In this document: one piece after another, positions 15,574 through 18,828 of the stretch
Layout of the letters: every line of letters begins with the position of its first letter
Position numbering within the stretch: the first letter of the stretch is position 1
DNA from: Microcaldota archaeon
GTDB lineage: Archaea > Micrarchaeota > Micrarchaeia > Micrarchaeales > Micrarchaeaceae
Direction of reading: 5' to 3'
NCBI GenBank assembly: GCA_021792395.1
Contig: JAJYUR010000005.1
Span: 1 to 33,320 of the forward strand
DNA length: 33,320 nucleotides
The notes under the pieces: generated by a model
Database searches by the model: none
Seen by the model: the letters and a program-made list of their open reading frames with translations, nothing else
What the model was told of the DNA's origin: nothing
Program-made: the position numbers and the translations under genes

Positions 15574-15660
15574 GCCAGGATGGCAGATAGGCCATGCGGC
15601 CGCCTGCAGAGCGGCAAAGGCGGGTTCGATACCATTATTGCGAAAATCCCGCTCCTGGCT
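15574..15660 (+). tRNA. tRNA-Cys(GCA) with 16-nt insertion (intron) in the T-loop
   Basis: Acceptor stem GCCAGGA (15574-15580) pairs with TCCTGGC (15653-15659), and T15660 is the discriminator, as in tRNA-Cys generally. The D-arm is GCA/TGC with GG in the loop. The anticodon stem GCCGC/GCGGC encloses CTGCAGA, giving anticodon GCA (15606-15608). The variable loop is AAAG. The T-stem GCGGG (15620-15624) pairs with CCCGC (15648-15652), but the loop between is 23 nt instead of 7. Removing 16 nt restores TTCGAAT or TTCAAAT. The gene is otherwise perfect, so this is best read as an intron-containing tRNA rather than a pseudogene. Confidence 0.92.
15630..15645 (+). other. putative tRNA-Cys intron in T-loop (one of three placements)
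   Basis: Sixteen nucleotides must leave the T-loop. Cutting after TTCGA (shown), TTCG or TTC each restores a legal seven-base loop, so the exact sites are ambiguous. TTCG (15625-15628) and CGAA (15641-15644) can form a four-base helix near the junction, but I could not draw a canonical bulge-helix-bulge. Non-canonical tRNA introns outside the anticodon loop are known in some archaea and are cut by the splicing endonuclease. Confidence 0.7.
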
Positions 15661-15688: not shown

Positions 15689-16123
15689 TCATACATCTAG
15701 GACGACATTGGCTTTAAAGCCGTTTGAAGTCTTTGACACCGATAGCGCATACCTTGACACTCCCTTTATATCAAGCTTCGAAACTTCAGGGTATTTATGC
15801 CTGCTTATAAGGGATGCTTCGAATGAGAATCCAGATGTGCGCTTGCGCACATCCACCTCTTCAGCCATATATGTATATACCCCTTTTGCATCGCTCAAGG
15901 AAAGTATGTCCTGAAGGAAGTACCACAGCAACGTCTCTATCGAAGGCGCTTTGTCCTTCACCTTGAGCCGTATTTTTTTACCAGCAGTTTTGGAAAGTAC
16001 ATCAGTATCGGCATTGACTCCGGACATTGCAAGAAGCGCATTTGAAAAAAGTTCCGGCAAGGTGCGCCCATATGCTACGAATTCCACGTCAGCGGTATGA
16101 TTCTTATATATGTATCTTCTCAT
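15689..16123 (-). CDS. archease, RtcB ligase cofactor
   Basis: A 144-residue protein of normal archease length. Signatures are NHTADVEFVAYGRTLPELFSNA at the N-terminus, IETLLWYFLQDILSL in the middle and the C-terminal strand GFKANVVLDV. Archease activates the RNA ligase RtcB, which joins tRNA halves after intron removal. It sits 28 bp from the interrupted tRNA-Cys, convergent with it, which fits functionally but may be coincidence. The acidic metal-binding residues expected near the N-terminus (Asp in HTADVEF) and C-terminus (final LDV) are visible. No RtcB gene is in the window. Confidence 0.92.
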   Translation of the reverse strand: MRRYIYKNHTADVEFVAYGRTLPELFSNALLAMSGVNADTDVLSKTAGKKIRLKVKDKAPSIETLLWYFLQDILSLSDAKGVYTYMAEEVDVRKRTSGFSFEASLISRHKYPEVSKLDIKGVSRYALSVSKTSNGFKANVVLDV

Positions 16124-17847: not shown

Positions 17848-18828
17848 ATGAAGTTCGAATTTAGCGCAGGCATAATAGTATATGCAGATATGGATGGTGA
17901 ACGTAAGTTTTTATTCCTGAAAAATCCGCATGGTTGGTGGGACCTGCCGAAAGGGCACATAGAAAAGGGGGAGAATGCCATCAAGGCCGCGCTAAGGGAA
18001 ACAAAGGAGGAGGCCAACCTGGTATTGAAGCCATATAGATCGTTCGTTTACAGTGAAGACTACTGGTTCATCAGCGCTGGCGAAAAAATAAAGAAGAATG
18101 TCAAGATGTTCATAGCAAAAGCGGACAACGTGGGGGATGTGAGGATATCCGAAGAGCATAGCGGATACGCGTGGATGTCTTATAAAGTGGCACTGAATGA
18201 GCTTAGGTATAAGACGCAGAAGCAGATGATATCTTCTGCGAACAGCTATATATCGCGATTAGAAAAAATCGATGCGATTAATGCAGAATATGCCAATCTG
18301 CCGAATATTGCGGCAGACTGGAAGCTCAGCCGAAGATTCGTCCCGGGGGAAGGCAGATTGAACGCAAAGGTGATGTTCATAGGGCAGGCGCCCGGGGCAG
18401 AGGAGGATATGAAGCTTAGGCCATTCATAGGCAGAAGTGGGAAGCTGCTAGACAGGCTGATTAAGTCCGCAGGGCTTGTAAGAAGGAATGTTTACATAAC
18501 CAGCGTGGTCCAGTTTTTCCCGCCTGAAAACAGGGTGCCTACTGACGATGAGATAGCACTATGCAAACCATTTTTGGATAGGCAGATCGCAGAGATAAAT
18601 CCAGAAATAATAGTTTTGCTCGGGTCGGTAGCTGCAAAGGTGGTAGTCGGGCTGGACGGCATCAAGTCAATACACGGGAGAGTGATATCTGGCAAGCCTA
18701 CTTATCTCGTCACTTTGCACCCTGCAGCTGCAGTCAGGATAAAATCCAATATGCCGCTTATAGAAGCGGATTTCAAGATTCTAAAATCCCTTTTAAAAAA
18801 TAGAAAAAGGTTTGGAACCCGCCAGTAG
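17848..18828 (+). CDS. Nudix hydrolase-uracil-DNA glycosylase (family 4-like) fusion
   Basis: A 326-residue two-domain protein. Residues 1-140 are Nudix: WDLPKGHIEKGEN followed by REtxEE (Gly36, Glu42, Arg50, Glu51, Glu54, Glu55), most like Ap4A-hydrolase-type members. The usual final Gly of the box is Asn57. Residues 150-320 match family 4 UDG: PGEG (166-169), motif 1 GQAPGAEED (179-187), RPFIGRSGKLLD, PPENRVPTDDEI and motif 2 HPAAAV (291-296). Family 4 enzymes hold a 4Fe-4S cluster with four cysteines. Here only Cys239 remains; the CxxC region reads NIAADWKLSRR and the third position is Phe223. It follows the archaeosortase gene closely and ends at a terminator hairpin. Confidence 0.88.
   Translation: MKFEFSAGIIVYADMDGERKFLFLKNPHGWWDLPKGHIEKGENAIKAALRETKEEANLVLKPYRSFVYSEDYWFISAGEKIKKNVKMFIAKADNVGDVRISEEHSGYAWMSYKVALNELRYKTQKQMISSANSYISRLEKIDAINAEYANLPNIAADWKLSRRFVPGEGRLNAKVMFIGQAPGAEEDMKLRPFIGRSGKLLDRLIKSAGLVRRNVYITSVVQFFPPENRVPTDDEIALCKPFLDRQIAEINPEIIVLLGSVAAKVVVGLDGIKSIHGRVISGKPTYLVTLHPAAAVRIKSNMPLIEADFKILKSLLKNRKRFGTRQ

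Follow-up and report, generated by a model that had tools for sequence, protein, structure and literature searches.

The window, the whole stretch of 33,320 nucleotides analysed here, contains a tRNA-Cys(GCA) gene at positions 15574–15660 of the forward strand, recognized by direct reading, by parsing and with ARAGORN. Its acceptor stem (GCCAGGA/TCCTGGC), D arm, anticodon stem (GCCGC/GCGGC) with the loop CTGCAGA (anticodon GCA), variable region (AAAG) and T-stem (GCGGG/CCCGC) are intact, and the gene ends at 15660 with the discriminator T73, a base kept in all 90 tRNA-Cys genes parsed for comparison. The T-loop, TTCGATACCATTATTGCGAAAAT (15625–15647), is 23 nucleotides long. Both features, perfect arms including U73 and the 23-nucleotide loop, had been described in an earlier sequence-only reading and were confirmed. 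The gene is predicted to consist of a 5′ exon (15574–15630, +), whose last position, 59, closes the loop segment TTCGAT and whose cut site was placed by threading on 27 tRNA-Cys genes; a 16-nucleotide intron, ACCATTATTGCGAAAA (15631–15646, +), delimited by threading and folding and by the retention of Y59 and T60 in intronless relatives; and a 3′ exon (15647–15660, +), comprising T60, the 3′ strands of the T-stem and acceptor stem and T73, defined by parsing and threading. The 5′ strand of the T-stem, GCGGG (15620–15624, +; parsing and folding), forms the outer helix h of the splice motif.

The next gene, in convergent orientation, encodes archease, the partner of the RtcB ligase (15689–16123, −; Pfam PF01951, E = 6.8e-22). 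In 59 loci around tRNA-Cys genes, with flanks of differing length and from overlapping genomes, archease occurs in 36, a CBS protein in 41 and an exosortase in 32; the spliced tRNA often adjoins the archease gene, as does one intronless tRNA-Cys (L051). Elsewhere in the window, NUDIX and uracil-DNA glycosylase domains are fused in one frame (17848–18828, +).

The unspliced tRNA-Cys gene was not called by ARAGORN, either in the window or isolated, with or without the intron option, and scored only 16 bits with the Rfam tRNA model. An Rfam scan of the window at the gathering score returned nothing, the tRNA-Leu included, which a whole-genome search with RF00005 did find. Once 16 nucleotides had been removed, ARAGORN called tRNA-Cys(gca) for seven of the eight registers tried (k = 1 to 7), a result that supports the insert but not any particular register. 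In the gene's own genome (G000; 831,528 bases in 44 contigs, 88.66% complete), a DNA search with the tRNA-Cys gave one match, or two at a laxer limit, and no second GCA anticodon was present among the parsed tRNA candidates; a second intact tRNA-Cys gene, the observation that the earlier reading had named as counting against it, was not found in the portion assembled.

A DNA search of 99 genomes, including G000, gave matches at E values up to 10 in 96 of them, from which 90 tRNA-Cys genes in 89 genomes, the window's own among them, were parsed; in the 10 genomes lacking a parsed gene, matches were either absent or short and weak. The T-loop measures 7 nucleotides in 63 of these genes and 20–36 nucleotides in the other 27. 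The comparison with related genomes, proposed earlier as a check, thus shows an insert at this position to recur in 27 of the 90 genes, which means that it is not a product of chance. All 27 share one layout (T-stem, TTCG, three nucleotides, an inner part, CGA(A), NNT, T-stem). TTCGA…CGA is found in every one, and the full TTCG/CGAA complement of four pairs in 25, the last pair of the central helix being missing from L047 and L052, which retain three. Insert length is variable and the core unconserved, with both splice flanks conserved. The inner part can form at least four contiguous pairs in L047, L050, L052, L054, L058, L061 and L074; the remaining 20 form between one and three. Splicing between positions 59 and 60 would yield TTCGAYT, a loop also present in intronless relatives, in 24 of the 27 genes; the other three (L035, L036 and L038), all from genus g6, would carry A59. 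Among the intronless genes, Y59 (C or T) and T60 are each found in 63 of 63. G57 occurs in 27 of 27 intron-bearing genes versus 26 of 63 intronless ones (Fisher P = 1.5e-8, uncorrected for kinship).

A scan of the GTDB genome collection, overlapping the parsed set, yielded 29 stretches matching the insert pattern, 23 of which are titled Candidatus Micrarchaeota archaeon (ARM-1 included), one Micrarchaeum (A_DKE), one Mancarchaeum, three Marsarchaeota and one Aenigmatarchaeota. The tRNA-Cys in the last-titled record, L139 (JACPJU010000001.1), has a T-loop insert with the TTCG/CGAA layout and, by eye, an apparent second insert before the anticodon stem. In A_DKE (Ca. Micrarchaeum harzensis; L147) the insert measures 13 nucleotides, and the predicted mature loop is TTCGAAT.

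Removal of 16 nucleotides restores a standard T-loop in more than the three ways counted earlier, the loops for k = 3 to 7 being TTCAAAT, TTCGAAT, TTCGAAT, TTCGATT and TTCGATA. Comparison among relatives led to the choice of k = 6, corresponding to a 59/60 intron, and the combination of the T-stem, TTCG/CGAA pairing and two bulges likewise gives this single register, with TTCGATT as the spliced loop of a canonical tRNA. The central 4-bp helix H joins an exon strand, TTCG (positions 54–57; 15625–15628, +), to the complementary intron strand CGAA (15641–15644, +; threading and pattern counts), with pair probabilities of 0.83–0.91 in the isolated T-arm. Two bulges border it: the 5′ bulge AT|A (15629–15631, +), placed by threading, with the 5′ splice site predicted between 15630 and 15631, and the three-nucleotide 3′ bulge AA|T (15645–15647, +), supported by threading and folding, with the 3′ splice site predicted between 15646 and 15647. 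When the whole precursor is folded, the minimum free energy (MFE) structure includes the T-stem, TTCG/CGAA and the 3′ bulge (AAT), and the isolated T-arm folds at −9.0 kcal/mol with helix H compared with −6.6 kcal/mol without it.

The inner helix consists of one contiguous C–G pair in the threaded structure, short of a strict hBHBh′ motif and leaving the 5′ bulge without a closing helix. The window intron is best read as the bulge-helix-loop (BHL) form of the bulge-helix-bulge (BHB) motif, with the inner helix nearly absent. The sequence-only reading had inferred a 16-nucleotide intron with possibly relaxed cleavage and suggested folding as a check for a relaxed BHB; a T-loop intron with a relaxed motif is supported, the BHL arrangement appearing in the MFE fold of the full precursor. 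Its statement that a simple BHB could not be drawn does not stand, as the motif is present in that fold and the inner helix is completed in many relatives.

The central helix varies little, since TTC is universal, though base 57 can be A or G, and this position is the one at which the exon and intron strands can be compared. Among pattern matches in the 99 genomes (most of those fetched parse as tRNA, a few badly and L305 not at all), base 57 and its intron partner form A–U in 205 matches from 84 genomes and G–C in 36 from 29, with G–U in 4 matches from 4 genomes and A–C in a single match from one, the tRNA-Arg match L273. Controls with reversed patterns gave 1, 0, 1 and 0 matches for A57–U, A57–C, G57–C and G57–U, respectively, and the four-way test gave a Fisher P value of 1.5e-37, uncorrected for kinship. 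The exon base and its intron partner thus vary jointly, with compensatory A–U and G–C pairs. L305, L321 and L331 have no convincing tRNA parse. The inner helix was assessed in 142 matches (127 with A57 and 15 with G57) hand-picked from those listed among the 205 and 36 matches, leaving out near-repeats from sister species, several genomes with a single match, and a match in G076 that resembles a tRNA without an intron followed by a fortuitous match downstream; in this set the mean number of terminal pairs was 2.87, compared with 0.61 after shuffling and 0.92 in the highest of 500 shuffles.

T-loop introns are therefore common in this archaeal order; their scale was less expected, as were the indications, described below, that T-arms or introns have moved between tRNA genes. 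Such introns had been regarded as rare in the earlier reading; pattern matches for the A57 form occur in 84 and for the G57 form in 29 of the 99 genomes, the window's own included. Nor is the position itself exceptional, as the earlier reading had held it to be even for archaea, 59/60 being among the archaeal tRNA intron positions listed in PMC4090602, a review that points to Crenarchaeota and Nanoarchaeota as groups rich in noncanonical tRNA introns.

Within G000, a census identified seven tRNA genes with an insert in the T-loop: Cys(GCA), Ala(GGC), Arg(TCT), Ser(GGA), Lys(CTT), Arg(TCG) and Leu(CAA). The 59/60 motif fits all but Leu(CAA); five of the six fitting genes have TTCA/TGAA and would be spliced to TTCAAAT. 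The pattern listing of G000 that contains these six genes holds one further match, which is not a tRNA. Three of the six genes score below the Rfam cut-off. The tRNA-Leu(CAA) gene (L026; G000:C40:5932-6028) has a 19-nucleotide T-loop, TTCAAAAATACGAACAAAT, with a 12-nucleotide insert in which, by eye, only TTC/GAA pairs. Probable D-loop introns are present in Gln(CTG), Leu(TAA) and, by eye, Ser(GCT) (L236, L238 and L240), and a 37/38 intron was parsed in eleven tRNA genes and, doubtfully, in one more. Isotypes from the doubtful parses (L009, L031, L239–L242, L254, L256, L258, L263 and L269) were left unused, except for Ser(GCT) by eye. The Ser-like tRNAs L031, L263, L256, L258 and L269 have an upstream anticodon-arm insert that the parser did not place. 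A tRNA gene lies at or near the start or end of contigs C3, C26, C31, C34, C40 and C42 and at positions 41–128 of the window, and an identical Leu(CAG) sequence is found at the ends of contigs C32 and C34; these contig-end tRNA genes may be sites of insertions that vary between strains.

The splicing endonuclease encoded in G000 (L181:507–1673) is a single chain of 388 residues in whose one reading frame PF01974 matches two stretches, and its best match is PDB 4fz2/9w2k. It is identical to 4fz2, from ARMAN-2, at 258 of 387 aligned positions. With its single chain of about 390 residues, catalytic Y/H/K residues and the ASL residues Y160 and K161 (numbered as in PMC12397907), it is of the epsilon2 type. 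Residues Y160, K161, Y236, H251 and K282 are kept in this protein and in 66 of 66 aligned homologues, some from genomes that have the Cys intron and some from genomes that lack it; the type of endonuclease is accordingly no predictor of the intron, the same conserved enzyme being encoded where the intron is absent. RtcB ligase and archease, the further components of the archaeal tRNA splicing pathway, are both encoded in G000.

One of the compared genomes connects these observations with published biochemistry. The EndA of G018 is 100% identical to the 387 given residues of 4fz2, and G018 was therefore taken as ARMAN-2; its tRNA-Cys (L059) has a 13-nucleotide insert with the same layout as the window intron. 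As described in PMC12397907, the ARMAN-2 endonuclease cleaves ARMAN-2 pre-tRNA-Cys(GCA), a BHL-type substrate, in vitro, and alanine at ASL position Y160 or K161 renders cleavage undetectable. The published substrate would have the same T-loop intron site as L059, and it is very probable that excision of a close counterpart of the window intron by its matching enzyme has been demonstrated already. The two systems share the tRNA, the family, the insert layout, the BHL form (PMC12397907) and an epsilon2 enzyme with Y160 and K161; they differ in insert length (13 versus 16 nucleotides) and in that cleavage is shown for ARMAN-2 (Ca. Micrarchaeum acidiphilum) and predicted here. The epsilon2 enzyme is further described as cleaving introns of the BHL and hBH types at a range of positions (PMC4033280), and canonical and relaxed BHB motifs are reported from the T-loop too (PMC6379350). 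The window intron has its T-loop position and BHB logic in common with the noncanonical 59/60 introns of PMC4090602, and differs in its Micrarchaeota host and BHL form. In view of the cleaved ARMAN-2 BHL substrate, the T-loop BHBs and the listed 59/60 position, the kind of intron is already known; the window tRNA-Cys gene itself is a new case.

The gene, insert, helix, covariation and encoded enzymes are established here by computation, and the insert is almost certainly a real intron. On this sequence evidence we consider it very likely that a 16-nucleotide archaeal tRNA intron splits the tRNA-Cys gene between positions 59 and 60 and is removed by the epsilon2 endonuclease. In the precursor, the T-stem would be extended by the 4-bp helix between the universal UUCG (positions 54–57) and CGAA near the 3′ end of the intron, flanked by the 5′ bulge AU|A and the 3′ bulge AA|U in the BHL form of the archaeal splice motif. 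The endonuclease, with an ASL loop tolerant of relaxed motifs, would cut within both bulges, and RtcB, assisted by archease, would join the exons in the living cell to give an ordinary seven-nucleotide T-loop, UUCGAUU. A cut at a different register (56/57, 57/58 or 58/59) is improbable: k = 3, 4 and 5 likewise yield standard loops called as tRNA-Cys, but by hand check none has a 4-bp helix between two 3-nt bulges, whereas the 59/60 cuts follow the second nucleotide of the bulges that flank helix H and produce the Y59 found in 63 of 63 intronless genes.

That the insert might be kept, the lineage using a tRNA-Cys with an enlarged and structured T-loop, is very unlikely. A TTCG/CGAA hairpin would stack upon the T-stem, yet its pairing in a retained loop would compete with the contacts between the T-loop and the D-loop. 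A loop that varies from 20 to 36 nucleotides around an unconserved core, with both splice flanks conserved and base 57 and the intron covarying as a BHB helix would, also speaks against retention, as do the recurrence of this insert layout in several isotypes within a genome and the cleavage of the ARMAN-2 precursor in vitro (PMC12397907). Least probable of all is that the gene is a pseudogene damaged by random insertion, with another tRNA-Cys serving the cell. At 88.66% completeness the genome could be missing a second gene, and a few low-scoring tRNA candidates are unparsed; against this, all other arms are intact, T73 is kept as in 90 of 90 genes, inserts of the same layout occur in 27 genomes and the parsed census candidates include no second GCA anticodon. 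The 59/60 BHL intron remains the preferred reading.

The evolutionary history of these introns was approached through an endonuclease tree and through similarities within genomes. On the tree of 55 genomes (20 with and 35 without the Cys intron), the intron requires at least 9 changes, compared with means of 16.6 and 16.4 after shuffling and no value as low as 9 in 500 shuffles; the tree is weak, its starred branches forcing only 2 changes and the branches of G026 and G080 being very long. Repeated gain or loss of the Cys intron is likely, not proved. Within genomes, 7 of 186 intron pairs reached a similarity of at least 0.5, compared with 0.97 on average and at most 6 across 1,000 permutations, the strings being short and the 142-entry set hand-chosen. 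Similar Cys and Ala introns occur in G032, with inner parts CCTACG and CATACG, and a weaker likeness of the two in G050. ARMAN-2 has very similar introns in Ala, Arg-TCT and Arg-CCT, and the Arg-TCT and Arg-CCT introns of G026 are identical, a case in which gene duplication is possible because both are Arg tRNAs. A59 is found in all three Cys genes of genus g6, two of which also have the GCGGG T-stem of the Ala and Arg genes. In G000, the Cys intron has no twin among the six introns that fit the motif; the Cys T-stem is GCGGG nonetheless.

The introns shared within genomes, together with the Cys features of g6, point to a transfer of T-arms with their introns between tRNA genes, by transposition or gene conversion, a lead to be followed. 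The pattern resembles the transposition of tRNA introns in Thermoproteales (Fujishima 2010, as cited in PMC4090602 and PMC8450103) in that different tRNA genes of one genome carry very similar introns, and differs in that T-arms only are involved here, in small numbers, for which T-arm gene conversion or tRNA duplication may also account. More broadly, and at somewhat less than even confidence, 59/60 could be a general intron site in Micrarchaeota (Cys, Ala, Arg, Ser, Lys and His), with introns or whole T-arms passing between unrelated tRNA genes of one genome; given a permissive ASL endonuclease, and with the universal TTCR supplying one side of the splice helix, an intron could land in any T-arm.

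The T-loop intron described here is overlooked by ARAGORN and by the Rfam tRNA cut-off, and its likely splice site was fixed by comparison. Unless 59/60 T-loop introns are modelled, annotation of Micrarchaeota may miss essential tRNAs. More than two hundred pattern matches range from strict BHB to bare BHL, with the ASL residues the same in the endonucleases checked, and this natural variety of introns offers a ready series of substrates for defining the minimum structure needed by the epsilon2 enzyme.
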